Shown: one piece after another, positions 15,693 to 43,334 of the stretch
Position numbering within the stretch: position 1 is the first letter of the stretch
How the letters are laid out: each line of letters begins with the position of its first letter
Assembly: GCA_013822345.1 (NCBI GenBank)
Contig: PNKH01000058.1
Span: forward strand, 1-48,428
DNA from: Isosphaera sp.
Lineage (GTDB): Bacteria > Planctomycetota > Planctomycetia > Gemmatales > Gemmataceae
DNA: 48,428 nucleotides
Direction: 5' to 3'
Notes under the pieces: model-generated
Databases searched by the model: none
Told to the model about the DNA's origin: nothing
The model's input: only the letters and a program-made list of their open reading frames with translations
Position numbers and translations under genes: made by a program

Positions 15693-18600
15693 TCACTCCC
15701 CGAAGCAGCGGACGGTTCCGTCCTCGCACGTCACGTACAGTCTGCCGCCGGCGGCGGCCAACCCCGCCTGGATCACCCCGGCGTCGAGCGGGACGACCGC
15801 CAGTTCCGTCCCGTCCGTCGTGGAGAAGACGCGGAGCTCGCCGGTCTTCGCGCCGTTCCGGTCCGGCGGGCTGCTGAGGCCGACCACCATCTTGTCGGCC
15901 GCGAGGATGACCGCCTTCGGGTACAGCCCCTTGTACTCGTTCCGCTTCGCCAGCCAGTCCGGCGGGGCGCTGGAGTTCTGCCGGCCGGGCAGGTCCTTCT
16001 CCTTCTCCTTCGTCGTGTCCCACAGGGCCCACTCGACCCCGGCCACCCGCGTCACGGCGACGCGGGTGTCGTTGAACGCGATCGTCTCGCCGTGGACTTC
16101 CAGCTTCGGCTTGGTGAGCCGGAACACCCAGCTCCCGTGGTCGGCCCCGGGGCCGCCGTACTCCTCGAGCTGCTGGTTGCGGTACGGCGGGCGGAACCCG
16201 AAGTCGAGGTAGAACGGCATCGGGTGGACCGGCAGCGGCTGCGGCTTGTCCCGCGGCTTCGGCGGCTCGGGCGGGTCGGCGCTCTTGCCCGTCTTCGCGT
16301 CCAGAATGAACCCGGTCATGCTCACCAACGTGCCGTCGCTGATGAGCACGTCGTTCAGCACCTTGTTCGCGTTGTACCCGTACCGCCGCGTCGTCTCGCC
16401 GGCGTCCGGGATCTTCTTCCCCAGCTCGCCCGGCGCGCGCTCGTGGTGGACGCGGTACTTCCACAGCAGCTTGCCGGTGCCGGGCTCGAGGCCGTAGCAG
16501 TAGATGCCGCCGTTGGACTCCGGGTGGTGACCGGCCGCGACGACCAGGGTGCCGTCCACGACCGCGGTGGAGCCGAACAGCGGCCACGACGACTCGACCT
16601 GGTTGTACGCGACCAGGTTCCGCTCGTACGGCGCCGCGAGGAACTTCCACTGGGGCGCGCCGGTGGCCGCGTCGAGGGCGTACACCCGGCCGTCGCGGCA
16701 CCCGAACAGGCACCGCCCGGCGTAGACCGTCGGCGGCGTGTCCACGCGGCCGCCGGCGGTGAACTCCCACACCTTCTTGCCGGTCGCGGCGTCGCGGCAC
16801 TCGACCCGGTGCGCCTCCGGCGCGGCGACGTACAGCCTCCCACCGGCGACCACCGGGGCGCTCGCGGGACCGTTGAAGTTACTCGACTGGAACGCGTCGG
16901 CCGGGATCGGGCCGGCGTCGCGCGCGGGCACCGGTTCAACGGCCGCCTTCCACACCTCGCGCAGTTTCGCGGGGAGCGCGTCGCTCGTAGAACTGCTTCT
17001 CTTGGGGTTCGCGAGGTACGTCGGCCACTCGCCCGCCGCGGGCCACGCCGCGGGCTTCGTCGCTTCAGTGAGCTTCGCCGCCGGAGCGACTTCGAGCCGC
17101 GTGCCGTCCGCGACCGGCTCGCGCGGTTTCTCGCGCGAGGTAGCCATGAACCCGCGGACGCTGACGAAGCACTGGCACCGGTTCGGGGAGTAGAACAGCA
17201 TGCCGTACCCGGGGGTGTGGCCGGTGCCGCAGGTGCCGCGGCTGATCTCGGCCCGCTCCAGTTGCAGCGGGTCGGTCTTCACGTCGATGAAGTTGCCCAT
17301 GCTCATCAGGAGGTAGTTCCTCGACGCCCGACTCATGTCGCACCGCGAGTTCCCCGGCATCGGGTACGCCCCGAGCTTCTTCCCGTCCGCCGCGTTGTAC
17401 ACCTCCAGGGCCAGCGACATCACGTAGATTTTTTTGTCCACGAGGACCATGTCGAGGAGTTGGCCCTTCGAATCCGGGTTGACCTTCCAAACGACCTTGC
17501 CGTCGGCCGGATCGATCCGGGCGAGCAGCAGGTCGCGGCGGCGGCCGATGAACCCCGAGAGGTTGAACGCGTACAGGGAGCCGTCCTGGTAAACCGTTTG
17601 CGAGAGCTCGTGGTCGATCGGGCAGGCCCACTTCTTCTTGCCGGTCTTCAGGTCGAGGGCGAGGATCTCCTTGGCGTCGGAGCCGGGGTAGCGGCCGGCG
17701 TCGCGGCCGCGCGCCCCCGAGGTCACGAAGACCAGGCCCTTGTCGGCGGCCACGGTCGGCAGGTCGACGAACGCCCCCTCGGCCTCCTCGTGCTTCCACC
17801 TCAGATCGCCGGCCTTCGCGTCGAGCGCGTAAACGCCCTTGCCCGCCGTTTGGAGCAACGTGCCCTCGTGCAACACCAGGTTGACGTCGGATTCACCCCC
17901 GTTCTTGAGCTTGCCGGGCCGCCCTCCCTTGTCGAACTTCGTCACGACCTCGCCGGTCGCGGCGTCGAGGCCGACGAGCGGCCCGTTCTCGTCGACGTAC
18001 GTGAAGACCCGCTCGGCCGTCATGACGATGGGCCGGGTCTTATACGGCTTGGCCGTCGTCGCCTTCGACCAGAGGACGACCCCGCTGTGCGCGTCGCGGC
18101 ACACGAGGTACGTCGTCCGCGGCGTCATCTTGCTCCCGCCCGGCGGCTCCCACTCGTACACCGCGCGGCCGCCGGAGAGCCGGAACCCGGTCGTGGGGCT
18201 GGCGCCCGTGCCGACCACCCCGGCGAGCCACTGCAGCCCGGTCGGCGGGCCGACGACCTCGTCCTGCGAGACCGGGTTGCCGTCGGGCCCGTGGTAGAAG
18301 TGCGACCAGTCGTCGCTCCCCTTCGGCAGGGGCTTGACGGTACGCGCCCACTTCCCGCCGCGCCTCAGGTACGACACGCCGTTCGGCGCGAGCACCCGCG
18401 TCACCTCGGCCGCGGGCGGTGCCTTCTCGCCCAGCGCGTCGAGGTCCGCGACGAGCAGGTTGACGAGGTTGTCGGCGTAGGGCAGTCGGTCGAAGGACGC
18501 GACGCGCTCGACCGCGGCCGGGCCGTACAGCGCGCGGTCGCGGATCAGCTTCCGCGCCGCCTCGGCGTGCTTCGCGTCGAGCGTCAGGCCGTGGACGACG

Positions 18601-18824
18601 CGCCTTCCGCCGGTCGCCGCTTCCACCTCGAACGCCCCGTCGGTGGTGCCGAGGTGGACGCTCAGCCCGGCCTCGACACCGGCGGCGCGCAGCACGTCCT
18701 TCGCGGACTCGGGTTGCTCGTCCGCGGCGGCGCTCGTGGGAACGGCGTCCGGCGCGAGGAGGAGCGCGATAGCGAGCAACCCACTCGCGAGAAGCGTCAG
18801 ACCGGCAGCGGGTGAAAGGCGCAT
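15693..18824 (-). CDS. Exported methyltransferase-like/PQQ propeller protein
   Basis: This 1043-residue protein begins with a signal peptide (about 1-33). Residues about 40-165 resemble a degenerate class I methyltransferase fold: GVEAGLSVHLGTTDGAF for the nucleotide loop, LPYADNLVNLLVADLDALG, and EVTRVLAPNGVSYLRRGGKW. The rest is a PQQ-type beta-propeller from WSHFYHGPDGNPVSQDEVVG, with repeated blades such as VYALDAATGAPQWKFLA and ALDLKTGKKKWACPI. Such fusions occur in planctomycetes; SAM would not be expected outside the cytoplasm, so the first domain is probably structural. It is the last gene of the ECF-headed run, 37 nt after the SGNH-like gene, with AGGA eight bases before the ATG. Ligand unknown. 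Confidence 0.9.
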   Translation of the reverse strand: MRLSPAAGLTLLASGLLAIALLLAPDAVPTSAAADEQPESAKDVLRAAGVEAGLSVHLGTTDGAFEVEAATGGRRVVHGLTLDAKHAEAARKLIRDRALYGPAAVERVASFDRLPYADNLVNLLVADLDALGEKAPPAAEVTRVLAPNGVSYLRRGGKWARTVKPLPKGSDDWSHFYHGPDGNPVSQDEVVGPPTGLQWLAGVVGTGASPTTGFRLSGGRAVYEWEPPGGSKMTPRTTYLVCRDAHSGVVLWSKATTAKPYKTRPIVMTAERVFTYVDENGPLVGLDAATGEVVTKFDKGGRPGKLKNGGESDVNLVLHEGTLLQTAGKGVYALDAKAGDLRWKHEEAEGAFVDLPTVAADKGLVFVTSGARGRDAGRYPGSDAKEILALDLKTGKKKWACPIDHELSQTVYQDGSLYAFNLSGFIGRRRDLLLARIDPADGKVVWKVNPDSKGQLLDMVLVDKKIYVMSLALEVYNAADGKKLGAYPMPGNSRCDMSRASRNYLLMSMGNFIDVKTDPLQLERAEISRGTCGTGHTPGYGMLFYSPNRCQCFVSVRGFMATSREKPREPVADGTRLEVAPAAKLTEATKPAAWPAAGEWPTYLANPKRSSSTSDALPAKLREVWKAAVEPVPARDAGPIPADAFQSSNFNGPASAPVVAGGRLYVAAPEAHRVECRDAATGKKVWEFTAGGRVDTPPTVYAGRCLFGCRDGRVYALDAATGAPQWKFLAAPYERNLVAYNQVESSWPLFGSTAVVDGTLVVAAGHHPESNGGIYCYGLEPGTGKLLWKYRVHHERAPGELGKKIPDAGETTRRYGYNANKVLNDVLISDGTLVSMTGFILDAKTGKSADPPEPPKPRDKPQPLPVHPMPFYLDFGFRPPYRNQQLEEYGGPGADHGSWVFRLTKPKLEVHGETIAFNDTRVAVTRVAGVEWALWDTTKEKEKDLPGRQNSSAPPDWLAKRNEYKGLYPKAVILAADKMVVGLSSPPDRNGAKTGELRVFSTTDGTELAVVPLDAGVIQAGLAAAGGRLYVTCEDGTVRCFGE

Positions 18825-18861
18825 CGTCGGCGTCCTGCGGTGGTAGCGGGTCGGGCGGTGG

Positions 18862-19674
18862 TTACGGCCTCTTCGGCGCGGCGCGGGCGTCCCTCTCCGA
18901 CTTCAGCGCGGCGTCCATCTCCTCGGCGCTCCACGCGGGCACGTCCAGCCCGTCGTGCTTCAGCAGCGCCTCGAACCACAGGTGGCTGTACACCGCGTAC
19001 CCGGCCTTCGACGGGTGGAACTCGTCGGCGCCGATGGTGAGCGGGTGGTGCTTCCTCGTCAGCGGCAGGCAGTCGATCGCGCGGTTCGCCTTCGTCTTCT
19101 CGTTGTAGGCGGCGAACACCTTCGGCGCGAACGCCTCGTCGTACTGCCCGCGGCGGTCGGCCCGGTCGTGCGTCTCGAAGTGGTGGTAGGTGCTGACGAA
19201 CACCTCGGCCGCGCCCTTCGCCTTCAGCGCCGCGACGAAGTATCCGAGGGTGTCCACGCCGAGTTTCACCGTCTCGTCGTTCACGACGACCGGCTGGCCC
19301 TTCACCGCCGGCCGCTGCAGCTCGACGCCCGACAGCGCGATGACGATCACCGGGTTGCCGGCCTCCTTCTCCTTCGCCAGCGAGAACGTGTCGAGCCACG
19401 ACCCGGCGTGAACCGCCCCGGTGCGGGCGTCCACCGGCGTTGACCAGCCGGTCGTGAACTTCACCGTGATCGGGCTGTTGCCGCCGAAGTACCGCTTCAG
19501 CTTCTGGTCGAGCTGCCGGCCGCCGGCGTGCGAGTTGGTGACGCACACGACGGTCTTCGGCTTGCCGTCGAAGATCTTCAGCGCGGCCTCGCGCGGCGCG
19601 GGGGCCGGTTCGGCCGCGGGGACGGGGACCGCGACAAAGGCCGCGAGTGCGGCGAGCAGGGATCGGAGAATCAT
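18862..19674 (-). CDS. SGNH/GDSL-like exported hydrolase
   Basis: This 270-residue protein has a signal peptide (about 1-20). The mature part reads like an SGNH-hydrolase-fold protein: VVCVTNSHAGG places a serine (S48) where the nucleophile of block I lies, although the block is NSH rather than GDS, and DEFHPSKAGYAVYSHLWF supplies the DxxH pair (D217, H220) near the C-terminus, as in block V. Middle blocks are less clear. Many SGNH enzymes deacylate lipids or carbohydrates, so ester hydrolysis on glycans is possible. It lies 24 nt after the DUF1501 gene and 37 nt before the PQQ gene. An alternative reading is a non-catalytic SGNH-fold protein. Confidence 0.65.
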   Translation of the reverse strand: MILRSLLAALAAFVAVPVPAAEPAPAPREAALKIFDGKPKTVVCVTNSHAGGRQLDQKLKRYFGGNSPITVKFTTGWSTPVDARTGAVHAGSWLDTFSLAKEKEAGNPVIVIALSGVELQRPAVKGQPVVVNDETVKLGVDTLGYFVAALKAKGAAEVFVSTYHHFETHDRADRRGQYDEAFAPKVFAAYNEKTKANRAIDCLPLTRKHHPLTIGADEFHPSKAGYAVYSHLWFEALLKHDGLDVPAWSAEEMDAALKSERDARAAPKRP

Positions 19675-19698
19675 CGGGAGTGCTCGTGCGACTGCGGG

Positions 19699-20991
19699 TC
19701 AGGTGAACAACTCGGTCAGCGGCTTCACGTGCTCGCCGTCCGCGAGCCGGAACGGGCGGCCGTCCGGGGCGGTATTCGTCTTCGTGTGGTCGACGCCGAG
19801 CCCCCGATAAATGGTCGCGTGCAAGTCCTGAACGGACACCGGGCGCTCGGTCACGTCCATCCCCTTCGCGTCGGTCTTCCCGACCACCCGGCCGCCCTTC
19901 ACCCCGCCCCCGAGGAGCAGCGCCACGCCGGACTTGCCATGGTGGTTGCTCCCGGCCTTGTCGCCCTTGCCGGGCAGCGTCCGGCCCATCTCCCCGACCC
20001 ACACGACCAGCGTCGTGTCCAGCAGCCCGCGGTCCTTCAGGTCGGTGACCAGCGCGGCTAGCGCCGGGTCGGCCGCCCCGCACAGGATCTTGTGCCGAGC
20101 CAGGTGTTCGCCGTGCGTGTCCCAGCCGGTCATCCCGACCTCGACGAACGGCACCCCGGTCTCGACCAGCCGCCGGGCGAGCAGGCAGCCCTCGCCGAAC
20201 GGCGACTTGCCGTACCCCTCGCGGACCTTGAGCGGCTCCCTGGTGAGGTCGAACGCGGCGAGGTGCTTGCTCCGCATGAGCCGCACGGCGCGGCGGGCGG
20301 TCTCCTCCTGGTCGGCCACGACGGCCGAATTCCGCCCCTTCGCGAACTCGCCGCCGAGCGCCGCCCGCAGTTCGAGCCGGTCGTTGAATTCTTTATCGCC
20401 GACCAGCGCCTTCAGGTCGTCCACACCTTTCGCCGGGTCCTTGACCGCGAGGGCCTGGTAGCGCGGGCCGAGGAACCCGGGGCCGTAAGACGTGTACCGC
20501 GACACCGCCTCGTCCCCGGTCACCCCGCCAAAGCACGGCCCGACCTGCACGAACGCGGGGAGGTCCGCGTCCGGGTCGCCGACCTCTTTCGCCACGACCG
20601 ACCCGATGCCGGGGTGGACGACGCCGGTCGTCGCCCGGTAGCCGGTGTGGGTGTAGTACCGGCCGAGGGCGTGGTCCGGCACCGGCGTCTGGAACCCGCG
20701 GACGACCCCGGCGAGGTGGACGAGTTTGGCGAACTGCGGGAACAGCTCGCTCACCTGGACGCCGGGCACCGACGTGGCGGTCGCCCTCGTCAGGCTGGTG
20801 TCCGGGGCGTCCTTCGGGTCGAACGTGTCGAGCTGGCCCGGGCCGCCGGACATGAACAGGAACACCACCTGCTTGGCGGTGGCCTTCGGCGCCGTCGCGG
20901 ACGCGGCGGGCGCGGTGCCGGCGGCCGAGGCCGCGGCACCGGCCGCGGTCGCCGCGAGGAAGTCACGCCGGGAGGGTTCAGCGGGTCGCAT
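19699..20991 (-). CDS. DUF1501 secreted protein
   Basis: This 430-residue DUF1501 protein has a twin-arginine signal (SRRDFLAATAAG at 7-18). Family blocks are FLFMSGGPGQLDTFDPKDA, DLKDRGLLDTTLVVWVGEMGRTL, and NHHGKSGVALLLGGGVKGG. The C-terminus ends with VQDLHATIYRGLGVDHTKT, common to this subgroup. It begins nine nt after the stop of a decayed DUF1553 fragment, matching the DUF1553-then-DUF1501 order seen at 37188/35764. It is followed within 24 nt by the SGNH-like gene. Only a weak ribosome-binding sequence (GGGGCG) precedes the ATG. Role unknown. Confidence 0.92.
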   Translation of the reverse strand: MRPAEPSRRDFLAATAAGAAASAAGTAPAASATAPKATAKQVVFLFMSGGPGQLDTFDPKDAPDTSLTRATATSVPGVQVSELFPQFAKLVHLAGVVRGFQTPVPDHALGRYYTHTGYRATTGVVHPGIGSVVAKEVGDPDADLPAFVQVGPCFGGVTGDEAVSRYTSYGPGFLGPRYQALAVKDPAKGVDDLKALVGDKEFNDRLELRAALGGEFAKGRNSAVVADQEETARRAVRLMRSKHLAAFDLTREPLKVREGYGKSPFGEGCLLARRLVETGVPFVEVGMTGWDTHGEHLARHKILCGAADPALAALVTDLKDRGLLDTTLVVWVGEMGRTLPGKGDKAGSNHHGKSGVALLLGGGVKGGRVVGKTDAKGMDVTERPVSVQDLHATIYRGLGVDHTKTNTAPDGRPFRLADGEHVKPLTELFT

Positions 20992-21000
20992 GGTCGCCCC

Positions 21001-21075
21001 TCAGTGGTTGACTCGGAACTCGGCGGATGTCGGCAGCACCCGGAACAGGTCGGCGCAGGCGGCCGGGCGGTCCTC
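21001..21075 (-). pseudogene. C-terminal remnant of a DUF1553 gene
   Basis: Reading the minus strand from an in-frame TAA (21076-21078) to the TGA at 21001 gives EDRPAACADLF then RVLPTSAEFRVNH, the characteristic C-terminus of DUF1553 proteins. The intact DUF1553 gene at 25084 ends AYADLFWALLTSAEFQVNH. At DNA level the first 63 bases from each stop differ at about ten positions by eye. Everything upstream of this piece is missing, and the DUF1552 gene ends 49 bases away. The piece suggests a DUF1553-DUF1501 pair once stood here and was split by insertion or deletion. Confidence 0.85.
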
Positions 21076-21123
21076 TTACAAACGCACCCGGCCGCGGCCT
21101 TCCCCTCGCCCCCGGTCGGCCCG

Positions 21124-22506
21124 TTACTGGCGGGTCAGGTCGGACAGTTCGCCGGTACTGTCGGCGAAGGCCTTCACCGGGACGCCCATCCGGTCGAGCA
21201 TCGTCACGAACAGGTTGGCGAACGGCACGTCGCCGGGCTTGAGGGGGTTGTTGCCGTCCGACTTCCCGCCCTCGAACGTCGGCGGCGGCCCGAACCGCAG
21301 GTGCCGGCCGTGCCGCAGCCCCAGGCCCCGGCCGCCGGCCACGACCAGCGGCAGGTTCTTGTAGTTGTGCGTCGTGCTGCTCCCGCTCCCGAACAGCAGC
21401 ATGGTGTGGTCGAGCACCGTCCCGTCCCCCTCCGGCGACGCCTTGAGACGCCCGACCAGGTACGCGAACTGCTCGACGAAGAACCGGTCGACCTTCGCCA
21501 GGTTCTCGTACTCCGGGTCGTCGTGCTTGACGTGGGACAGCGTGTGGTGCGTGAGCTTGGAGATGCCCACCCGGGCCGGGAAGTTCTGGAGGACGCCCCA
21601 GTCGGCCTCGCGGGAGAACATGTAGGTCGCCACGCGGGTGCTGTCGGTCCGCAGGGCCAGGACGATCAGGTCGAGCATCGTCCGGATGTAGGCCTGCGGG
21701 CCGGCCGGGTCGTCGTGGGCGGCGTCCAGGTGCAGGCCGGCGGGGTCGACCTTCGGCTTCGGCACGTCCACCCACGCCTCGGACGCGTGGACCCGCCGCT
21801 CGACCTCCCGGACGTTCGTCAGGTACTCGTCGAGCTTGCGGCGGTCGTCGGCCCCGAGCCGCCGGTGCAGCGACGACGCCTCGTCGCGCACCGCGTCGAG
21901 GATGCTGGCGTCCTCGGCGAACCGCGCCCGACGCCCGTCCCGCGTGCCGCCCGGCTCGTCGCCGAACAGCCGCTCGAAGATCAGCCGGGGCTTGGACTCC
22001 GCCGGGATCGGCTGCCCCTGCGAGTTGAACGACAGGGTGGACGCGTACCCCTGGTGGCCGACCCCGCCCTCGCTGGACAGCACCAGCGAGGGCAGCCGAG
22101 TCTCGGCCTGGAAGTGCCGGGCCGCCACCTGGTCCACGGAGATGCTGTTGCGGTAGCCCGGCGAGGCGCCGCTGCCGGCCTTCGCCCCGGTGAGCCAGAT
22201 GTCGGGCGCCTCGTGCCCGTGCCAGGCGCCGCGGTGCCACAGGTTCGTCAGGACCGTCACCTCGTCCCGGCACGCGTCCAGCGGCTTGAGCGTGGGCGAC
22301 AACTGGTAGTCGCGTCCGACGTCGGCCGGGAACCACTGCTTGACGTTCACCCCGTTCGGGAAGAAGAGGCACGCCATCCGCGCCGGCCGCTTGGCCGCGG
22401 GCGCGGCGGCGCGGGCAGCCATGGCGTCCAGGAACGGGAGCCCCATGGCGACGCCACCGGCGCCGCGGAGGAACGTCCGCCGGGACAACTGAATCGGCTT
22501 CCTCAT
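21124..22506 (-). CDS. DUF1552 secreted protein
   Basis: This 460-residue DUF1552 protein starts with a twin-arginine signal (SRRTFLRGAGG at 8-18). Landmarks are ACLFFPNGVNVKQWFPADVG, ISVDQVAARHFQAETRLPSLV, LDEYLTNVREVERRV, ALRTDSTRVATYMFSREAD and DHTMLLFGSGSSTTHNYKNLP, matching the family in order. It follows the DUF1592-type gene by 18 nt, with GGAGAG about five bases before the ATG. Its stop is followed by the DUF1553 remnant. Function unknown; it is always paired with DUF1592 here. Confidence 0.93.
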   Translation of the reverse strand: MRKPIQLSRRTFLRGAGGVAMGLPFLDAMAARAAAPAAKRPARMACLFFPNGVNVKQWFPADVGRDYQLSPTLKPLDACRDEVTVLTNLWHRGAWHGHEAPDIWLTGAKAGSGASPGYRNSISVDQVAARHFQAETRLPSLVLSSEGGVGHQGYASTLSFNSQGQPIPAESKPRLIFERLFGDEPGGTRDGRRARFAEDASILDAVRDEASSLHRRLGADDRRKLDEYLTNVREVERRVHASEAWVDVPKPKVDPAGLHLDAAHDDPAGPQAYIRTMLDLIVLALRTDSTRVATYMFSREADWGVLQNFPARVGISKLTHHTLSHVKHDDPEYENLAKVDRFFVEQFAYLVGRLKASPEGDGTVLDHTMLLFGSGSSTTHNYKNLPLVVAGGRGLGLRHGRHLRFGPPPTFEGGKSDGNNPLKPGDVPFANLFVTMLDRMGVPVKAFADSTGELSDLTRQ

Positions 22507-22524
22507 CGCATCTCTCCGGGTCGG

Positions 22525-25074: not shown

Positions 25075-25083
25075 GGGCAATCC

Positions 25084-26598: not shown

Positions 26599-26622
26599 GG
26601 CGTCAACCCTCTCTCGTCCGGA

Positions 26623-27882: not shown

Positions 27883-27910
27883 GGCGGGTCGTCCGTGGGG
27901 TGTGAGCCGA

Positions 27911-29695
27911 TTACTTCCTCGCGTCCGCGGTCTTCGCCAGCACGAGCTTCCTGCCGTCGAAGGTGACCGTCTGGCCGCCGACCACGATCTTGTCGCCGTC
28001 CACCTTCGGCACCGGGGCGTCGCCCGTCTTCTGGAGGGTCAGCACCGAGAACGGCTTGCCGCCGACCGTCAGGTCCGTCACCTTCGCCGGCCCGCCGGAC
28101 TTCGCCGCCGGCTTGCCCACGCCGGCACCGCCGAGGATCACCAGTGCCTCCGCCCCCGACGCGCCGCTGTAATCGACGGCGAGGAACGTGTCGGCCGCGG
28201 TGAGCGTGCCGGAGCCGTCCGGCAGCGCGGCGAAGTGGTCGGCCTTGCCCTTCCGCATCTGGCCGAACTTGACCCGCTCCTTCAGCCCCCACACGTGGAC
28301 CGTGCCCGGCCCGTCGTTCCGCGCCCCGAGCAGCACGCCGACGATCGTGTCGTCCGCGTCCTGCCACCGGTTGCGGAACACGTAGTACCCCATCCTCTCG
28401 TCGCCCACCGCCTTCGGGAGCAGCCCCTCGGGGCTCTTCGGCTCCACGCCGATCGGCCAGTTGGCGAGCGCCAGCACCGCCCGGTGCGGGTACACCAGCG
28501 CGTCGTAACTCCTCTCGCCCGCCTTCAGGAGCTCGTCGTACTCCTTGACCTCGGTCGGCTCGACGAAGTTCCGGTACACCCACAGCATCGCGGGCCTGTG
28601 CTTCTCGTCCACCGCCCCGAAGCCCTGCGCGTGCTGCCCGCCCTTGCTCAGCCCGGCGCGCTGGAAGTACTCGGTGCCGTACCCGCCGTTCGGGTGCGGG
28701 TTCGGGTAGAACGCCCCCTTGTCGGTCGGCAGCAGCCACAGCGCCCACTTCAGGCTGACCCACTCGGCGTTCGGCCGCGGGGTGACGAAGTCCTTCCCGC
28801 CGGCCACCCGCATCGCCTGGAGGAGCGGCACGAACGCGGTGTCCGACGCGATCTGCCCCGGCCCCGGGTGCTCGTGGAAGTACCCGTGGTCGCCGAACCC
28901 CTCGGTCACCTGGCGGACGATGTTCCTCTCGACCGCCTCGCGGTGCCCGGCGAGGAGCTTCGCGTCGGTCCCGGGGTCGCCCTCGACGGCGAGCACCGCC
29001 AGCCCCGCGCCGCCGATCTGGCAGCCCCAGTGGTTGCTCCCGGGGTTGTGCCGGGCGCCGCGGGCCATCTCGCCGAGGCTCATGTACTGGCCCTGGTTGT
29101 ACCCCTGGATCTCGCCCGCCACCTTCTTGCGGAAGTCCTCGTCCCAGCCGTCGTGGCACAGGTCGTAGGCCATCGCGACCGCGCCCAGGCTCGGCCCGGC
29201 CCGCAGCGCCCCGCCCGGCTTCACCCACGAGTACCGGTCGTCGCGGTCGCGCTGCCCGGCCAGCGCCTTCTCGACGCACTGCCGGCCGAGGTCGGCGTAC
29301 TTCCTGTCGCCGGTGAGCTGGTACAGCATGCCGTACCCGGCCCCGTGCCACAGGGTGTACGTCTTGCCCACGGGCGGCTCCTTGGTCTTCCCCTCGTACG
29401 CCTTGCCGGACTCGTTGAACACGGTCGGCATCGCCTCCCCGTCGCCGCCGTTGAGCAGGAACCGGAGCCGCGTGACGATCTCCTTGCCCTCCGGCGTCTC
29501 GGCCCGCTTCCTCATCTCCGGCACGTCGGCCTTGCGGAAGAACAGTCGCGGGTGCTCGCCCGGCTTGGGGGCGACGAAGCCCTTGACCGGGGCCGGCCAC
29601 GGCGTCTTCTCGTCGGCGGCGCGCACCGGCCCGCCGGCCGCGAGGAACAGCCCGCCGGCCAGCGACAGCAGGGCGAATGCACTTGATCGCGTCAT
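27911..29695 (-). CDS. Heparinase/alginate-lyase-like exported protein
   Basis: This 594-residue protein has a signal peptide (about 1-26) and a mature N-terminus typical of heparinase II/III-like and DUF4962 proteins: HPRLFFRKADVPEMRKRA. The central helical part contains HGAGYGMLYQLTGDRKYADLG and NHWGCQIGGAGLAVLAVEGD, consistent with an alpha/alpha-toroid, and FGDHGYFHEHPGPG supplies aromatic and histidine residues where such enzymes act. The C-terminal third is beta-rich. I infer an exported polysaccharide lyase or hydrolase acting on uronic-acid-containing glycans; the substrate cannot be deduced. GGAGAA lies five bases before the ATG. Genes on both sides are within 28 nt. Confidence 0.7.
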   Translation of the reverse strand: MTRSSAFALLSLAGGLFLAAGGPVRAADEKTPWPAPVKGFVAPKPGEHPRLFFRKADVPEMRKRAETPEGKEIVTRLRFLLNGGDGEAMPTVFNESGKAYEGKTKEPPVGKTYTLWHGAGYGMLYQLTGDRKYADLGRQCVEKALAGQRDRDDRYSWVKPGGALRAGPSLGAVAMAYDLCHDGWDEDFRKKVAGEIQGYNQGQYMSLGEMARGARHNPGSNHWGCQIGGAGLAVLAVEGDPGTDAKLLAGHREAVERNIVRQVTEGFGDHGYFHEHPGPGQIASDTAFVPLLQAMRVAGGKDFVTPRPNAEWVSLKWALWLLPTDKGAFYPNPHPNGGYGTEYFQRAGLSKGGQHAQGFGAVDEKHRPAMLWVYRNFVEPTEVKEYDELLKAGERSYDALVYPHRAVLALANWPIGVEPKSPEGLLPKAVGDERMGYYVFRNRWQDADDTIVGVLLGARNDGPGTVHVWGLKERVKFGQMRKGKADHFAALPDGSGTLTAADTFLAVDYSGASGAEALVILGGAGVGKPAAKSGGPAKVTDLTVGGKPFSVLTLQKTGDAPVPKVDGDKIVVGGQTVTFDGRKLVLAKTADARK

Positions 29696-29723
29696 CTCGG
29701 TTCTCCGTCGCGTGGCGACAACT

Positions 29724-31250
29724 TCAGTGGCTCAACATCTTCGCGGGGAGCGGGGCGAACGTCCCTTCGGTGCCGCGCAGCAGCACCTCGAACGGCTCGC
29801 GGCTCCGCGGCCAACTGTTGACGACCAGCACGCGGTGACCGCCCTTCTCGAGCGCGAGCGCCGCCTCGACGGTCTTGTCCTGCCCGCGCGTCTGGGCGAC
29901 CGGCACGAACCCGCCCTTCTCGTCCGCCAGGTACAGCCCGACGGACGAGCCGGTGAGCTGGAACTGGTACACTCCCGTTTCGGGCACGGTGACCACGCCC
30001 GCGAACCGCGCCGTGAACTCCTTGCCCGGCGCGGCCTTCGTCGCCGCCTCGGGGAGGGAGAACCCCGCCGACTCGCCCGCGTGGACAGGTTCGCCCTTCC
30101 CACCGAGTATCGCCTTCAAGAGGTCGTCCTTCCCCTTGCCGAGCGAGCCGGCGTAGAGCTTCAGTTCCAGCCCCGCGTTCGCGCCGGGTTCGGCGTCCGG
30201 CTTTCGCGCGGGCCGCACGTCGAACCGGGCGATGCTCTGGCGGGTGAACGTACCGTCGCCCGTAACACCCACCGCGCGGAAGAGGCACGACTTGTCGAGC
30301 GCGATCGGCCCCGCGTACGCCCGCTTGCCCTTCGACGGGTCGGAGCCGTCGAGCGTGTAGAGCAGCTTCACACCCTTCGGGGCGGTGAGCGTCACCTTCG
30401 TGCCAGGCACAATCACCCCGCCGGGCGGGTCGATCGTCGGCTTGTCCGGCGTGGCCGGGAGCGCGGCGTTGGTGAACGTGGTGAGGATCTCCGGCAGGTG
30501 CCGCTCGAACATCGCCCCGACGCCGTGGTCGAGGTCGCGGGCGTCGATCGTCTCCACGTCCGTCATCCCGGCCTTGCGGAACCGGCCGAGGTAGTCGCGC
30601 CCCTGCCGCCAGAACCACCCGCCCTCGATCAGCAGCACCGGCGTGTCCCTCACCGCGGCCCCGTGCTTCTCGATCTGCTGGACGTACCCGTCGCCGTCGG
30701 CGGTGTAGTCGAGGTCGCGGGTGTGCTTGTCGTACAGGGTCATCCACCCGTCGAGAGACACCACCGCGCCGAACAGGTCCGGGTACTTCAGCGCCAGGTG
30801 CATCACCCCGCCCCCGGCCTTCGAACACCCGACCAGCACCCGCCCCTTGGGGCCCGCGACCGTACGGTAGTTGGCGTCCACCCACGGGATCACCTCCCCG
30901 CGGAAGAACGACCCGGACGGCTGCCGGCGGTCGCTCCACGCGGCCGCCGCGGCGTGCTCGCCGCCCTGCGACGGGCCCTCGTAATTCACGAACAGGGCCG
31001 GCGGGAAGTGCCCGGCGGCGTACAGCGTTTCGAGCTGCCTGGTCGGTATCCCGGTGTTCTGGCAGCAGTACACGACCGGGTACCTGCGGTCCTTGTCGGC
31101 GGCGTACCCGGGCGGTGTCCACACCCGGACCGTCTCCGTCGTCTTGAGGGCCTTGCTCTCGATCTTGACCACGCGGACCGGGTCCGCGGCCCCCGCGACG
31201 GCGGGGGCGAGCGCGACGACGGCGAAGGCGAGAGCGTATCGCGGGGGCAT
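29724..31250 (-). CDS. Alpha/beta hydrolase with HEX_C and PA14-like domains
   Basis: This 508-residue exported esterase-like protein has a signal peptide (1-21). An enterochelin-esterase-like alpha/beta hydrolase (about 25-262) shows VRVWTPPGY, a nucleophile elbow GCSKAGG with Ser143, and DLDHGVG with His242. Residues about 268-345 form a chitobiase/HEX C-terminal-like domain (LLYTLDGSDPSKG). Residues about 365-490 resemble PA14, a carbohydrate-binding fold (GVVTVPETGVYQFQLTGSS and VGLYLADEKG). The set suggests ester cleavage on a glycan or glycopeptide with added binding modules. AGGA lies seven bases before the ATG. A decayed relative of this type lies at 45798. Confidence 0.8.
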   Translation of the reverse strand: MPPRYALAFAVVALAPAVAGAADPVRVVKIESKALKTTETVRVWTPPGYAADKDRRYPVVYCCQNTGIPTRQLETLYAAGHFPPALFVNYEGPSQGGEHAAAAAWSDRRQPSGSFFRGEVIPWVDANYRTVAGPKGRVLVGCSKAGGGVMHLALKYPDLFGAVVSLDGWMTLYDKHTRDLDYTADGDGYVQQIEKHGAAVRDTPVLLIEGGWFWRQGRDYLGRFRKAGMTDVETIDARDLDHGVGAMFERHLPEILTTFTNAALPATPDKPTIDPPGGVIVPGTKVTLTAPKGVKLLYTLDGSDPSKGKRAYAGPIALDKSCLFRAVGVTGDGTFTRQSIARFDVRPARKPDAEPGANAGLELKLYAGSLGKGKDDLLKAILGGKGEPVHAGESAGFSLPEAATKAAPGKEFTARFAGVVTVPETGVYQFQLTGSSVGLYLADEKGGFVPVAQTRGQDKTVEAALALEKGGHRVLVVNSWPRSREPFEVLLRGTEGTFAPLPAKMLSH

Positions 31251-31276
31251 GTCTCATTCCTGACCGGGGGGGACCG

Positions 31277-32338
31277 TCAACCGAAGTGCGAGGTCACCGG
31301 GGCCGCGGGGTCGTCGGCCACGTGGACCCAGATGTGGACGTGTGGGGTGCCCCGGAAGTACCACACGAAGGCCGGCCCTTCGAGCCGCCAGTTGTCCCAC
31401 TCCCCGTCCTTGCCGACCTGGTGTTCCTGGTAGAACGCGAGGCGGCATTTCTCCAACCCGCCCCGGGCCTTCAGACACCGCAGAACCTGCTCGCGGTACT
31501 CGGGGCGGTACGGCTCGAGCAAGGCGGCCAGGGTCTTCTCGACGGCCTCCTTCTGGTCCCGGGTCATGTCGGCCACGGGTAACCCCGGAAGGTCGCCCCC
31601 GGCCCGGAAGCGCAGGTCCGGCTCCAGCGGCTTGTCGAGCTTCGTGTCCGGGCGGATCGTCCGCCGGTCGATCTTCCCGTCGAACTCGTACCACGGCATC
31701 CCCTCGGCCACGACGGCCGCCTTCCGCTGCTTGCCGTCGAGGAGTTCGTACACCTTGTGGGCCTCCCGGGCCTGGTACCAGAAGATGTTGCCCGGGTGGC
31801 CGGGCTTCTCGTGGAACCCGCTCGGCTGGTGCCCGTGGCAGACGGCCCCGCCGAAGGCCGCCCCGTCCTTGCCGCCGCCGGCCCGGAGGGTCAGGTGGAA
31901 CCCGGTCAGCACGCACTGGCAGCCGCCCCCGCCGGGCGTGCCGAAGAGGGCGATCTTCCGGTCGGCCGTCCACTCCCGGCCGGTGTCGTCCTTCGCCTGC
32001 CGGGCCAACTTCTCGGGCCAGCCGTCGGAGAGGACGCTCTTGAGGACCTCTCCGACGAGGGTCTGCTGCTCCTTCGTCAGCGCCCCGACGGTCGTACCCG
32101 AGACGCCCCAGTTGTTGGCGGCGTGCAGCCGCAGGGGAAGCCCGGACGAGCCCTTCTTGTCCCACTCGAAGCAGAACGCCTTCTTCTGGTCGTCGGTCAG
32201 AGAGTCGTACAGGGCCTTCACGGCCCGGTCGGACTCGGACGGCTTCGGCTCGGCGGCCGGGCTCACCCCGGCCGCGGCCAGGGCGGCGGCCCCCCGGAGG
32301 AGGTCCCGCCGGGTGAGGCTGAGGTCTGGGCCCGTCAT
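31277..32338 (-). CDS. DUF3500 secreted protein
   Basis: This 353-residue protein carries a twin-arginine signal (TRRDLLRGAAALAAAG at 9-24) and the DUF3500 domain. Family features are LYDSLTDDQKKAFCFEWD near the mature N-terminus, TGFHLTLRAGG and GGAVCHGHQPSGFHE, and the C-terminal FVWYFRGTPHVHIWVHV. Function of DUF3500 is unknown; the conserved His clusters suggest metal binding. It follows DUF1501 by 22 nt and is followed by the esterase gene within 26 nt. GGGAG lies five bases before the start. Confidence 0.82.
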   Translation of the reverse strand: MTGPDLSLTRRDLLRGAAALAAAGVSPAAEPKPSESDRAVKALYDSLTDDQKKAFCFEWDKKGSSGLPLRLHAANNWGVSGTTVGALTKEQQTLVGEVLKSVLSDGWPEKLARQAKDDTGREWTADRKIALFGTPGGGGCQCVLTGFHLTLRAGGGKDGAAFGGAVCHGHQPSGFHEKPGHPGNIFWYQAREAHKVYELLDGKQRKAAVVAEGMPWYEFDGKIDRRTIRPDTKLDKPLEPDLRFRAGGDLPGLPVADMTRDQKEAVEKTLAALLEPYRPEYREQVLRCLKARGGLEKCRLAFYQEHQVGKDGEWDNWRLEGPAFVWYFRGTPHVHIWVHVADDPAAPVTSHFG

Positions 32339-32360
32339 GGCGACTCCCGGGAGGGGTGGG

Positions 32361-33755
32361 TCAGAGCAACTCGCGGATCGGCCGGCCGTCGTCGAGCAGG
32401 GGCTTCAGCTCGCGCGGGAGGTCGGTGCGGAGGCGCAGCTGCGGCACGTCGAACAGGACGTGCAGCACCGTCGCGACGAGATTGGCGGGCGTGTACGGCT
32501 CCGTCGCGGGGCGCGCACCCTGCTTGTCGGACTTGCCGACCACCTGGCCCGTCTTCAGCCCGCCGCCCGCGACCAGCAGCGGCGTCAGGTCGCCCCAGTG
32601 GTCGCGCCCGCCCTGCTTGTTCACCCTCGGGCTGCGGCCCATCTCGCCGGTCACGACCAGCAGCACCTTGTCCTCCAGCCCGCGCTCCTTCAGGTCGTCG
32701 AGGAACGCCGCGACGGCGTGGTCCACCTGCCGGCCGAGGACCTCCATCGCGGTCATGCCCTTCGCGCTGTTCCCGTCGGCGTGGAGGTCCCACCCGCAGT
32801 CGCTCACCGTCACGAACCCGACCCCTCGCTCGACCAGCCGGCGGGCCAACAGCATCTGCTTGCCGAGCAGGTTCGTCGTGCGGTTCATGTTCACGTACTT
32901 CGTCCACTCCTCCATCCTGAACAGCTTCGAGGTGTCGTACCGCTCGACCGCCGTCGGGTCCTCCCGCGACACGTCGAACGCCTCGCCGACGCCGCGGGCG
33001 ATGATGTCGAACGCCTGCCGCCGGAACTTGTCCGCGCGGGCGAACCCCGGCTCGGCCGCCCGCCGGGCGTCGTCGAACGCGGCGAGCAGCTGCTTGCGGT
33101 CCTCGAACTGCTCGGTCGGTATGCGCAGCTCCATCGCCCGCTTCAGCGCCGCCCCGCCGACCGGGTTGAACGCCTCGTACTGGGGGCCGAGGGCGCCCGG
33201 CGCGGTGAGCGTCGGCAGCGCGCCCGTCTCGAAGTTCCCCTTCAGCTTCAGGCCGTCCTGCACCGCCTCCGGCAGCACCACCACGTTGCCCGGGATGCCG
33301 CTGACGGCGCCCGCCGGCCCGCCGAGGTACGCCGCGATGCTGCCCACGGTGGCCTTCGCCGCGTTGCCGCCGCTGAGCACCTCGGCGTAGGAGTGCCCGC
33401 CGTTGCGGGACTGGTACGACCGCACGACGGCGAGCCGGTCGGCCATCGCGGCGAGCTTCGGGAACGTGCCGCCGAACGTGACGCCCGGCAGCGCCGTCTT
33501 CACCTCCCCGGTGGCGCTGCGGTACTCCTCGGCGGCGTCCACGTGCGGGTCGAACGTCTCGTGCTGCGGCGGCCCGCCCTGGAGGAACAGCAGCACCACG
33601 GCCTTGTCGCGCGCGGCGGCCGGGGCCGCGGCTTTCGCGGCCAGCAGGTTCGGGAGCGTGAGCGCGCCGAGCCCGAGGGCGCCGACTCGCAGGAAGTCGC
33701 GCCGCGACGCGCCGGCGCAGGTGCGGGCCGGCTTGCGGTCGGAGATGGTGAGCAT
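32361..33755 (-). CDS. DUF1501 secreted protein
   Basis: This 464-residue DUF1501 protein is the second gene of the ECF-headed run, 52 nt after the sigma gene. A twin-arginine signal (SRRDFLRVGALGLGALTLP, from about 18) precedes the family core: LFLQGGPPQHETFDPH, LARRLVERGVGFVTVSDCGWDLHA, FLDDLKERGLEDKVLLVVTGEMGRSPRVN and RDHWGDLTPLLVAGGGLKTG. GGAG lies five bases before the ATG at 33755. Its sulfatase/phosphatase-like fold makes it a candidate hydrolase, though the activity is unproven. It sits far from a DUF1553 partner, unlike the other copies. Confidence 0.93.
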   Translation of the reverse strand: MLTISDRKPARTCAGASRRDFLRVGALGLGALTLPNLLAAKAAAPAAARDKAVVLLFLQGGPPQHETFDPHVDAAEEYRSATGEVKTALPGVTFGGTFPKLAAMADRLAVVRSYQSRNGGHSYAEVLSGGNAAKATVGSIAAYLGGPAGAVSGIPGNVVVLPEAVQDGLKLKGNFETGALPTLTAPGALGPQYEAFNPVGGAALKRAMELRIPTEQFEDRKQLLAAFDDARRAAEPGFARADKFRRQAFDIIARGVGEAFDVSREDPTAVERYDTSKLFRMEEWTKYVNMNRTTNLLGKQMLLARRLVERGVGFVTVSDCGWDLHADGNSAKGMTAMEVLGRQVDHAVAAFLDDLKERGLEDKVLLVVTGEMGRSPRVNKQGGRDHWGDLTPLLVAGGGLKTGQVVGKSDKQGARPATEPYTPANLVATVLHVLFDVPQLRLRTDLPRELKPLLDDGRPIRELL

Positions 33756-33807
33756 GGTCGCTCCGGGAAGGCACTCGGTCCGACCGAGCGGTTTGGGGTG
33801 GGCACGC

Positions 33808-35634
33808 TCAGTTCGCGGTCACGTCCCAGAGCCGGAGGACGCCGTCCGCGCCGCCGGCGATCAGCACCGCCCCGTCGGGCGAGAAGGCGAGGGCCGTCAC
33901 CCCCTTCGGGTCGGCGGCCGCGGTCGACAGCTCGGCCCCGGTCGTCAGGTCCCACAACTTCACGGTGCCGTCCCCGTTCCCGGTGGCCAGCGTCCGCCGG
34001 TCCGGGGAGAAGGCGAGGCGGACCTCGGGCCGGGTGTGCCCGCGGAACGACAGCCGCTCGCGGCCGGTGTCGCAGTCCCACACCCGGAACACGTTGTCCT
34101 GCCCGGCGGTGACGAGCGCCCGCCCGTCGGCGGCGAACCCGACCGCGGCGAGCCGGGCGGCTTCGCCCGACCCGTGCCGGGGGAGTTTGAGCCGCTCCGC
34201 CCCCGTCGCCGGGTCGCGGAGGACGACGGCGGTGTCGCGGCAGGCGGTCGCCAGCGTCCGCCCGTCCGGAGCCAGGCACGCGAACCGCACGTCCCCGGCG
34301 TCGGCCAGCCGCACCTCGTCCCCGGTTCCGACGTCCCACGCCTTCAGGCACAACCGGCCCTTGTAATCGGCGGCGGCCGCGACCCGCTTCCCGTCGGCCG
34401 AGAACGCGACCTCCAGCACGTTGAACGGCTCGGGGTGGAGCCGCCCGAGATCCGCACCGGTGGTCGCGTCCCGAAGACGCACGTTGTCGCGGTCCCCGCC
34501 GACGGCCAGCGTCCGCCCGTCGGGCGACACCGCCAGGCACGTCAGATTCCGGCCCTCGTTCACGACCGCCTGCCGCGCCCCCGCCGCCCGGTCCCAGAAG
34601 ACCAGGCCGCCGTCTCCGCCGGCGGTGACGACGCGGTCCCCGGCGAGGAAGGCCACCGCCTGGACGCGGGTGCGGGGGCCGACCCACGCGCTCCGGGGGG
34701 TGAGGCCGGGCGTCCGAGCAGTGGGCCCGACCGGCGCCGGGGTCGCGGGCGTGAGCGAGGCACCCGGCGGGGGGTCGGGGGGAACCGGACGTTGACCGCC
34801 GCCCGCGAGAACCACCGACAGCACGCCCCCGGCGGCGAGGAGCGCCGCGGCGGCGACCCCGAGCGCGACCTTGACCCCGACCGCCGGAGGTGTCGCCGCG
34901 GCCACCAGGCGGGCGACGGACGCACCCGCGGCGGCCGCGACCGGGGCTCCCGCCACCTGGAGGGCGACCGCCCGGGCCGTCGCGGCCAGCAGGGCCGGCG
35001 GCACGGTCGCCGCGGCGGCCCCCTCGGCCAGCGCCGGCGCGACGGCCGCCGCCGCGAGGGTGTAACCCCGCCGGGCGGCCCGCCTGCGGAGCATCTCCAG
35101 GCCCCGCGCCACCCGGGTGCGGACCGTCCCGGCCGGCCAGCCCAGCTCGCGGGCCGCCTCGTCCTGGGTCTTCCCCTCCAGGAAGCACAGGACGAGCGGC
35201 GTGTGGTACTTGGCCGGCAGCTGGTGCAGCTCGTGCTCGAGGGCGGCGCGCAGGTCGGCGGCGGGGGCGGGCGGCGCCGGGCGGTCGGGAACCTCGGCCA
35301 TCGACACCTCGAGGAGTCGGCGGGTGGCGCCGGCGGCCCGGGCCGCCAGCGCCACCCGGTGGGCGACCCGGGCGAGCCACCCGGCGAGGGAACTCTCGGA
35401 CCGGACCGAGCGGGCCTTGCGGGCCAGGATCAGGAAGGAGGCCTGGAACGCGTCCTCGGCCGCGTGCGTGTCCCCGACCACCCGCCGGCAGACGCCCCAC
35501 ACGAGCGGGCCGTGCCGCCGCATCAGTGCGGCGAACGCGGCCTCGTCGCCCCGCTCGGCGAACGCGGCGAGTAACGGGGCGTCGGGGAGTTCCTCCCCGG
35601 CCCCGAGCCGTTGGATCAGTTGCAGCAGGTTCAC
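33808..35634 (-). CDS. ECF sigma factor fused to membrane segment and WD40 propeller
   Basis: This 608-residue protein is an ECF-type RNA polymerase sigma factor with a C-terminal sensor. Sigma region 2 lies at about 23-100 (DTHAAEDAFQASFLILARKA at 55-73, WLARVAHRVALAARA) and region 4 at about 125-190 (LEHELHQLPAKYHTPLVLCF, DEAARELGWPAGTVRTRVARG). An Ala-rich region leads to one probable membrane segment (about 254-277, VKVALGVAAAALLAAGGVLS). A long WD40 propeller follows, with blades such as VAFSADGKRVAAAADYKGRLCL and LAFSPDGAVLIAGGADGVLRLW. WD40-extended ECFs are known in planctomycetes. With one membrane pass the propeller would sit outside and could sense envelope events. The GTG at 35634 has GGGGGA upstream. 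It heads the run down to 15693. Confidence 0.92.
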   Translation of the reverse strand: MNLLQLIQRLGAGEELPDAPLLAAFAERGDEAAFAALMRRHGPLVWGVCRRVVGDTHAAEDAFQASFLILARKARSVRSESSLAGWLARVAHRVALAARAAGATRRLLEVSMAEVPDRPAPPAPAADLRAALEHELHQLPAKYHTPLVLCFLEGKTQDEAARELGWPAGTVRTRVARGLEMLRRRAARRGYTLAAAAVAPALAEGAAAATVPPALLAATARAVALQVAGAPVAAAAGASVARLVAAATPPAVGVKVALGVAAAALLAAGGVLSVVLAGGGQRPVPPDPPPGASLTPATPAPVGPTARTPGLTPRSAWVGPRTRVQAVAFLAGDRVVTAGGDGGLVFWDRAAGARQAVVNEGRNLTCLAVSPDGRTLAVGGDRDNVRLRDATTGADLGRLHPEPFNVLEVAFSADGKRVAAAADYKGRLCLKAWDVGTGDEVRLADAGDVRFACLAPDGRTLATACRDTAVVLRDPATGAERLKLPRHGSGEAARLAAVGFAADGRALVTAGQDNVFRVWDCDTGRERLSFRGHTRPEVRLAFSPDRRTLATGNGDGTVKLWDLTTGAELSTAAADPKGVTALAFSPDGAVLIAGGADGVLRLWDVTAN

Positions 35635-35643
35635 GAATCCCCC

Positions 35644-35673
35644 GGAGGCCCCCGCGACCTTCCCCGGGCCTCC
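35644..35673. promoter_or_regulatory. Inverted repeat upstream of ECF sigma gene
   Basis: GGAGGCCC (35644-35651) and GGGCCTCC (35666-35673) are perfect 8-bp inverted repeats with a 14-nt loop, in the 129-base gap between the DUF1501 stop at 35764 and the sigma start at 35634. An overlapping CCTCCTCAAGGAGG palindrome lies at 35669-35682. These could form a leader hairpin, a terminator of the upstream quartet or an operator. No T-run follows on the minus strand. Confidence 0.4.
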
Positions 35674-35763
35674 TCAAGGAGGAAGAGGGGCCGAGACCGC
35701 ACGGCGACTTCACTTTTCTCCGGATTGCGACCGCCGATCGAACTCCGGGCACCGCGGCCGGGG

Positions 35764-37170: not shown

Positions 37171-37187
37171 GGCGAACTCACGGGAGG

Positions 37188-39383: not shown

Positions 39384-39430
39384 GAACGAGTCCAGGGTCT
39401 GGGCGTCGGCGAGCCGTCCGTCGGCGGAGA

Positions 39431-43293: not shown

Positions 43294-43334
43294 TGGCACT
43301 GACCTCATTTGCTGCCGTCCCAAAGTGTGCGGTA

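Follow-up and report, generated by a model that had tools for sequence, protein, structure and literature searches.

A tightly packed gene run headed by an ECF-WD40 sigma factor gene in Isosphaera sp.: a candidate locus for exported processing of uronic-acid glycans

Clusters of genes for carbohydrate-active enzymes (CAZymes) exist in planctomycetes, and the available part of PMC11131199 states that none of them had been functionally characterized to its authors' knowledge; by the rule given there, such a cluster consists of a CAZyme gene and another CAZyme or auxiliary gene with at most two genes between them. According to the accessible sections of PMC5615132, the PSCyt2 and PSCyt3 genes are usually located next to two unknown gene families and often near sulfatase genes, some PSCyt genes carry carbohydrate-binding modules, a role mirroring that of glycoside hydrolases is suggested, and nothing is known of the function of PSCyt genes. 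The extracytoplasmic function (ECF) sigma factors of group ECF57 have WD40-like extensions and two cysteines, and for ECF factors that are fused to a membrane anchor, activation by proteolysis has been described in one case and is expected for others (PMC8999054, excerpts). Planctomycete ECF factors with WD40 domains are reported among the proteins of a sodium dodecyl sulfate-soluble fraction (PMC8567305, excerpts), and DUF1501 and sigma-70 genes are frequent neighbours of planctomycete WD40 genes (PMC5587647, excerpts). We analyzed a stretch of 48,428 nucleotides (nt) from Isosphaera sp. (contig PNKH01000058.1 of assembly GCA_013822345.1), termed the window as a whole, which contains a run of twelve genes at 15693-35634. 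This run consists of an ECF-WD40 sigma factor gene and the eleven genes that follow it, all on the minus strand.

On balance, we favour, with some reserve, the reading that the run is an operon-like locus for the exported processing of uronic-acid glycans, with a one-protein transmembrane sigma factor at its head. Like the clusters treated in the excerpts of PMC11131199, the run combines carbohydrate-active genes with a regulator, but its genes mostly belong to DUF families and its lyase lacks a Pfam call. The sigma gene is separated by two genes from that for an esterase and by three from that for the lyase. The DUF1553-DUF1501 and DUF1592-DUF1552 genes of the run are the counterparts of the PSCyt/PSD genes described in the accessible sections of PMC5615132, to which the run adds a lyase-fold protein, an esterase and a membrane-anchored sigma factor in a tight array. 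As in the polysaccharide-utilization loci (PULs) of Bacteroidota with ECF-FecR-TonB signalling, an ECF-type gene lies at genes for exported glycan enzymes, but SusC, SusD and FecR are missing, and sigma factor, anchor and sensor are one protein. The initial annotation regarded the run as a PUL analogue. Its sigma-headed, tight, exported and glycan-like character is borne out, but a PUL of the strict Sus type it is not, as no SusC/SusD-like pair is present. The kind of locus is known; its combination of genes and its mosaic history were not found in the literature searched, as far as the available parts of the articles go.

Packing of the run and signals for transcription

The junctions of the run in the order of transcription are 52, 22, 26, 28, 28, 24, 3, 18, 132, 24 and 37 nt long. 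Ten of the eleven are therefore within 3-52 nt, and the sole exception, that of 132 nt, is occupied by a gene remnant. The packing of the run is unusual, because same-strand gaps of 55 nt or less account for only 29 of 80 in 12 comparison stretches of the same genome, which were picked for holding ECF paralogues and two of which (L029 and L177) overlap. The binomial P for ten tight junctions of eleven against this background is about 3e-4. The arrangement on one strand is weaker evidence than the packing: chance alone would give eleven same-strand steps with a probability of about 0.01, a run of twelve is also found in one comparison stretch, and 24 of the 26 window frames that pass the coding filter are on the minus strand. 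The extent and strand of the run, the position of its sigma gene and the gaps under about 55 nt everywhere save at the remnant agree with the initial annotation; that annotation placed twelve genes and a remnant behind the sigma gene, of which the remnant stands, while the number of genes is eleven.

Strong promoters inside the run had been named as a result that would split it. None is found at 18000-37500, promoter types other than those scanned lying outside this result, and the one sigma-70-like match (9/12) falls within the PQQ gene at the end of the run. Terminator-like sites do not exceed those of shuffled sequences in either of two scans (5 versus 7.0 and 1 versus 3.1). A repeated promoter motif upstream of sigma-dependent genes had also been expected. 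A promoter common to these genes is rejected, as the gap preceding the sigma gene contains no match, and the single GGAAC-N-CGT match falls within a gene.

The sigma factor, the lyase-fold protein and the other proteins with export-like starts

The sigma protein (33808-35634) contains the sigma2 and sigma4 domains at residues 37-97 and 130-182, both of which exceed the Pfam cut-offs (PF04542 and PF08281), one hydrophobic membrane helix from about residue 258, and a C-terminal WD40 extension at about 320-606 (PF00400, E 5.7e-37). Cys49 and Cys150, one in each sigma domain, correspond to the two cysteines reported for ECF57, and both are present in 47 of 51 aligned paralogues. By its sigma2 and sigma4 domains, its WD40 C-terminus and these cysteines, all features named for ECF57 in the excerpts of PMC8999054, the protein resembles ECF57 factors in sequence. 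It differs from the ECF57 factors described there in having the membrane helix between the sigma and WD40 parts, which argues that the WD40 part is a sensor outside the cell. The protein is one of a large family of paralogues: this genome contributes 23 rows to the ECF tree, that of the window included, the trees being built without G000_C80, which has no membrane helix, and the fragment G000_C5b_1. A hydrophobic peak of at least 1.6 follows the sigma part in 22 of these 23 rows, and a WD40 part matching that of the window is found in four of them by blastp at E≤1e-3, a definition that other propellers may escape. When plasmids were searched with the sigma protein, none of 315 records covers 80% of the query, and the match of the five plasmid rows listed is confined to the WD40 part. 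The sigma gene may serve as a model for sensing of the outside without anti-sigma proteins in bacteria that have dozens of membrane-anchored ECF factors. Separate genes for an ECF factor and a FecR/Laminin_G anti-sigma-like protein are located beside a DUF1501 gene in relatives at two loci, L057 (7477-9578, by Pfam), which also has DUF3500, and L069 (9849-11962, by likeness).

The protein encoded at 27911-29695 has an export-like start and, according to its predicted structure, a polysaccharide-lyase fold of a helical toroid and a beta-sandwich. Its sequence gives a weak N-terminal match to HepB in NCBIfam (20.7 bits, cut-off 600) and, among the sequences of the PDB, a match to heparinase II (E 0.004 over 31 residues). 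The model has a mean predicted local distance difference test score (pLDDT) of 68 and a predicted template modelling score (pTM) of 0.71, and is based on an alignment of six relatives only. Every one of the 37 PDB matches that Foldseek gives at E≤0.001 is a polysaccharide lyase or dermatan-sulfate epimerase, and VIA gives Z scores of 13-21 to such proteins where at least 400 residues are aligned. Sugar 2-epimerases match the toroid alone (Z about 12). The model thus assigns a heparinase II/III-like fold to the protein over its full length, a fold shared with the uronate lyases PL17 Alg17c, heparinase II, GAGase II and PL40 ulvan lyase, to which the sequence is only about 9-16% identical. In an alignment of 39 rows, comprising L072-L107 and the window but neither L108 nor the cyanobacterial relatives, no row that is filled at Asn221, His222, Tyr177, Tyr339, Glu275 or His117 departs from these residues; Asn221, His222, Tyr177 and Tyr339 are candidates for the catalytic Asn, His and Tyr of such lyases. 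To judge by the titles of the structures, the matched lyases act on uronic-acid glycans. Uronic-acid glycans are therefore the likely substrate class of the modelled lyase, within which no single substrate can be named. PSCyt, DUF1501, DUF1552 and DUF1553 genes are present in multiple copies in these genomes, and the lyase-fold protein in the run would offer a concrete candidate substrate class for them.

The SUMF1/PvdO-like domain protein (26623-27882, PF03781) is encoded by a separate gene, 28 nt from that of the lyase. At two verrucomicrobial loci, L097 and L103, the two are one protein, with an N-terminal SUMF1 domain (PF03781, E 2.4e-49 and 1.1e-47), 38-39% identical to the SUMF1-like protein of the window, and a C-terminal lyase part. 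Both the lyase fold and these fusions strengthen the glycan-processing reading. Formylglycine-generating enzyme has two active-site cysteines. The SUMF1-like protein of the window has a single cysteine (Cys278) in the region expected to hold two, and seems unlikely to be a sulfatase maturase. At L097, genes for an ECF sigma factor, FecR and a TonB receptor form a row before the fusion, with about 0.8 kb between the end of the TonB receptor gene and the point where the fusion probably begins. The position of a TonB receptor gene before the fusion at both loci (L097 3094-11656 and L103 1808-9583) resembles surface-signalling control of a glycan enzyme.

The first gene after the sigma gene encodes a DUF1501 protein with a twin-arginine start (32361-33755), which is sulfatase-like by its profile, with a match to GalNAc-6-sulfatase at E 1.9e-5. 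It is followed by a DUF3500 protein, also with a twin-arginine start (31277-32338), and by the esterase (29724-31250), which contains PF00756, CHB_HEX_C_1 and a weak PA14 match. The best PDB sequence match of the esterase is filed as an isoamylase protein, and ferulic-acid and CE1 esterases come next. Downstream of the lyase and SUMF1-like genes are those for a DUF1549/DUF1553 protein with one CxxCH motif and without a PSCyt1 match (25084-26598), a PSCyt1-DUF1587-DUF1595-DUF1592-DUF1588-DUF1585 cytochrome with two CxxCH motifs (22525-25080), a DUF1552 (HXXSHH) protein with a twin-arginine start (21124-22506), a second DUF1501 protein with such a start (19699-20991), an SGNH-like protein (18862-19674) and, as the last, a large exported PQQ_2 beta-propeller protein (15693-18824). 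The GDSL match of the SGNH-like protein is below the Pfam cut-off (E 0.065), and its relative in G029, a genome of another genus, gives E 0.0011. The families that the initial annotation named are among these. That annotation held most of the products to be exported, and by motif and hydrophobicity the share is even larger: all eleven have export-like N-termini, four with a twin-arginine motif and seven with a hydrophobic stretch.

The model of the DUF1552 protein (pLDDT 77, pTM 0.79) has a best Foldseek E of 8.5e-4, its sole match at E≤0.001. In VIA, all 50 rows (Z 14-16) belong to one superfamily, that of alkaline phosphatases and sulfatases. The model therefore indicates an alkaline-phosphatase/sulfatase superfamily fold and with it a candidate enzyme class for DUF1552. 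The literature searched by family name, as far as its texts were available, contains no published fold for DUF1552, of which ten genomes have 6 to 30 matches each.

If these proteins act together, the ECF57-type sigma factor would span the membrane so that the sigma domain lies inside the cell and the WD40 propeller outside. A glycan fragment or partner protein on the outside would release or reshape the sigma part, which would then transcribe its own operon. The lyase would cut the glycan chain with the SUMF1-like protein as its partner, the esterase and the SGNH-like protein would strip acyl groups, and the phosphatase/sulfatase-like DUF1501 and DUF1552 proteins, the DUF1549/1553 protein and the PSCyt cytochrome may carry out hydrolytic or redox steps.

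Distribution of the genes and weighing of the explanations

The run is a mosaic. Its remnant (20992-21123) is a decayed duplicate of the terminal part of the DUF1553 gene at 25084-26598, of which it matches the final ~125 nt, at the 3' end, with a local alignment score of 77. Three hundred shuffles reach 23 at most, and another DUF1553 gene of the window scores 27. The remnant and the end of the DUF1553 gene bracket the DUF1592-DUF1552 pair as direct repeats. Because of these repeats and because a lyase gene is located directly before DUF1553-DUF1501 in G018, a congener, and G034, of another genus, the simplest history would have the DUF1592-DUF1552 pair enter a DUF1553-DUF1501 array and leave the remnant behind as one copy of a direct repeat. 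The lyase-DUF1553-DUF1501 adjacency is probably the older part of the locus, because both a congener and a genome of another genus have it. In congeners, the flanks (D1592up, D1552up, D1501dn and D1553dn) are 69-83% identical and the middle differs. The congener lyase genes adjoin relatives of flanking genes (D1501dn, 79-81%; D1552up, 83%; D1592up, 71-74%).

Part of the run recurs in G029 behind a sigma gene of like kind: the genes for ECF-WD40, lyase, SGNH and PQQ, with two small frames between those for lyase and SGNH, have the same order and strand as in the window, and the lyase, SGNH and PQQ proteins are 59-65% identical to those of the window. The ECF-WD40/lyase/SGNH/PQQ order appears to be shared with this one other genus only. 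At L017, the stretch that separates the lyase from SGNH was considered to encode a polysaccharide deacetylase, an idea dropped for lack of a Pfam match. In G066, a lyase gene precedes DUF3500-DUF1592-DUF1552-DUF1501. A quick lyase tree (SH-aLRT support only; pieces of less than 330 query residues, and with them L106, excluded) places the lyases of three congeners (G016, G018 and G024) and of G034 in one clade (100) that excludes those of the window and G029, which both belong to a different starred set (28 rows, 97).

Several results weigh against the preferred reading of an operon-like glycan locus. The full gene set is found in none of the 94 other genomes of the family, and the lyase is found in six of them. 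At E≤1e-10, the SGNH protein is present in one of the 94 genomes, and at E≤1e-20 in none of 391 other genomes of the phylum; the esterase is present in none of the 94 at E≤1e-40 among the best 16 candidates per genome. The closest match of the DUF1592 protein, among the best ten candidates per genome, is only 44% identical. The PQQ protein is at least 59% identical in two of the 94 (best eight candidates per genome). Relatives of the DUF3500 protein are common, and those at least 58% identical sit in varied contexts, which rule out a conserved cluster centred on DUF3500. The patchy distribution of the lyase, PQQ, DUF3500, SGNH, DUF1592 and esterase genes rejects a whole inherited operon. The ECF of the window pairs with G029_C1376 (97/91), beside which no such cluster is found, and not with the lyase-linked ECF of G029. 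A tree constrained to make the two lyase-linked ECF genes orthologues is rejected (p-AU 0.015); the hypothesis was set up before any tree and the test followed inspection of the first one, about 66 N-terminal residues are missing from the lyase-linked ECF of G029, which is truncated by the end of its contig, bootstrap values of the 51-row tree are unsettled, and the 22-row tree is a chosen subset. The fetched lyase stretches of the three congeners give WD40 matches and no ECF domain match. The proposal that the sigma factor is dedicated to this set by descent is not supported. The initial annotation had named as a refuting outcome that the sigma gene is not conserved together with the genes behind it, and this is largely what is seen: the congener stretches have no ECF match, the lyase-linked ECF of G029 is not the orthologue, one of 11 other ECF stretches of this genome holds a DUF1592/DUF1552 set, and the full set occurs in no other genome searched. 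In the 129-nt gap before the sigma gene (35635-35763), neither a sigma-70-like nor an AAC-N14-19-CGT match is found. The lyase has no Pfam match above the cut-off, and the Pfam matches of the twelve products (for the sigma protein, the best 25 of 38 families) include no TonB-receptor or SusD family and no transporter. The neighbours of lyase homologues elsewhere, of which 53 genes were listed and 10, then 27 and then four more proteins were scanned, are also mixed, with two glycoside-hydrolase-type families represented by one protein each among the 27 (25 of 40 families).

These results are consistent with a somewhat unlikely alternative, in which the run is a codirectional mosaic without joint function, where PSCyt/DUF1501/DUF1552 sets and accessory enzyme genes accumulate through insertion and duplication and the sigma gene, a member of a large family, stands by chance. 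It is favoured by the presence of three of the 13 DUF1552 matches of the genome on this one contig, by flanks that are kept in congeners around a differing middle, by the position of the lyase outside the congener clade, by a remnant and direct repeats that indicate insertion or duplication, and by the 23 ECF rows of the genome, a DUF1592/DUF1552 set being found in one of 11 other fetched ECF stretches. However, chance does not readily account for ten of eleven gaps of 52 nt or less, for the fusion of SUMF1 and lyase domains, for the recurrence of lyase genes beside DUF1553/1592/1552 genes, or for an ECF-WD40 gene directly before a lyase gene in a second genus, although five of the 21 ECFs examined in that genome have WD40, one of them weakly. 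The two ECF-WD40 paralogues before lyase-SGNH-PQQ genes could reflect independent recruitment or coincidence in ECF-rich genomes. Independent recruitment to lyase loci would be of interest if true. A broader proposal, that planctomycete glycan loci are run by one-protein transmembrane sigma factors with a WD40 sensor on the outside for glycan or enzyme and without anti-sigma factors, that different ECF-WD40 paralogues were independently recruited to uronate-lyase operons in two genera, and that the widespread PSCyt, DUF1501 and DUF1552 proteins are a hydrolytic-oxidative glycan toolkit replacing classic sulfatases and Sus proteins, is doubtful as a whole.

The attribution of the run to glycan processing in the initial annotation is supported by the lyase fold, the ferulic-acid/CE1-like esterase, the SUMF1-lyase fusions and the ECF-FecR-TonB row of L097. 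Within this attribution, it is unlikely that the locus remodels a surface or matrix glycan of the cell itself rather than a food polysaccharide. The export-like starts of all eleven products, the lack of a transporter or an intracellular sugar pathway in the run, and the presence of dermatan-sulfate epimerase, a tailoring enzyme, among the structural neighbours of the lyase (VIA Z 21) would suit such remodelling, but the patchy spread of the lyase in the family fits an accessory catabolic trait better, and the homologue at L097 comes after a TonB receptor. It is still less probable that the PSCyt, DUF1501 and DUF1552 proteins make up a unit that serves electron transfer in the envelope or acts there as an oxidase, with the lyase and esterase as passengers. 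The c-type haem motifs, two in the DUF1592 and one in the DUF1553 protein, point in this direction, as does the finding that, in freshwater Verrucomicrobia, PSCyt genes are denser where glycoside hydrolase genes are sparser (PMC5615132, accessible sections), but the DUF1501 and DUF1552 proteins resemble a hydrolase superfamily, and the same sections place PSCyt genes beside sulfatases and note their carbohydrate-binding modules.

Neighbouring genes and more distant relatives of the lyase

The run is not isolated, and its sigma gene lies within a long co-directional stretch. Upstream, a second DUF1592-DUF1552-DUF1553-DUF1501 set in the same direction ends 129 nt before the sigma gene. It consists, on the minus strand, of a PSCyt1/DUF1592 cytochrome gene (40762-43308), a DUF1552 gene (39431-40762), a PSCyt1-DUF1549-DUF1553 open frame (37188-39731), the real start of which is inside the frame, and a DUF1501 gene (35764-37170, by Pfam). 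Downstream, the PQQ gene is followed by a gap of 119 nt and a DUF1559 pilin-like gene. Further DUF1501, DUF1553, DUF1592-like and DUF1552 genes are found at 0.7-13.8 kb of the window.

A scan of named genomes gives 60 loci with a relative of the lyase, in Planctomycetota, Verrucomicrobiota, Kiritimatiellota, one record filed as archaeal and, at about 23-30% identity, Cyanobacteria. A gene picker based on guanine-plus-cytosine content finds the lyase frame in 42 of them, and this reading covers few of the cyanobacterial contexts. DUF1592 or DUF1552 genes are present in the fetched stretch at six loci (L073, L076, L087, L089, L102 and L108), and four of these six belong to the family of the window. 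In L108 (3-18392), a record of Planctomycetota, the order DUF1592-DUF1552-lyase is repeated three times in tandem. A PQQ_2 protein adjoins the lyase homologue in L082, L089 and L106, and in L082 an alpha/beta hydrolase with CHB_HEX_C_1 completes a combination that closely resembles that of the window. The lyase of L080, a record filed as a methanogenic archaeon, is 46% identical and lies beside an Ig-like protein, probably because of a binning error. The distant cyanobacterial homologues (~23-30%) are those of L109, L110, L112-L114, L116-L124, L127, L128, L130 and L131, several of them from Microcystis.

Elsewhere in the window, one exported protein lies in pieces in different frames at 43335-45319, just upstream of the PSCyt/DUF1592 gene, and represents a broken gene or an assembly error. 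Alpha/beta-hydrolase-like and propeller-like pieces with changing frames at the contig end (46547-48426) are probably assembly errors or pseudogenes. At 7369-9126, a single protein matches the solute-binding family SBP_bac_11 in two stretches.

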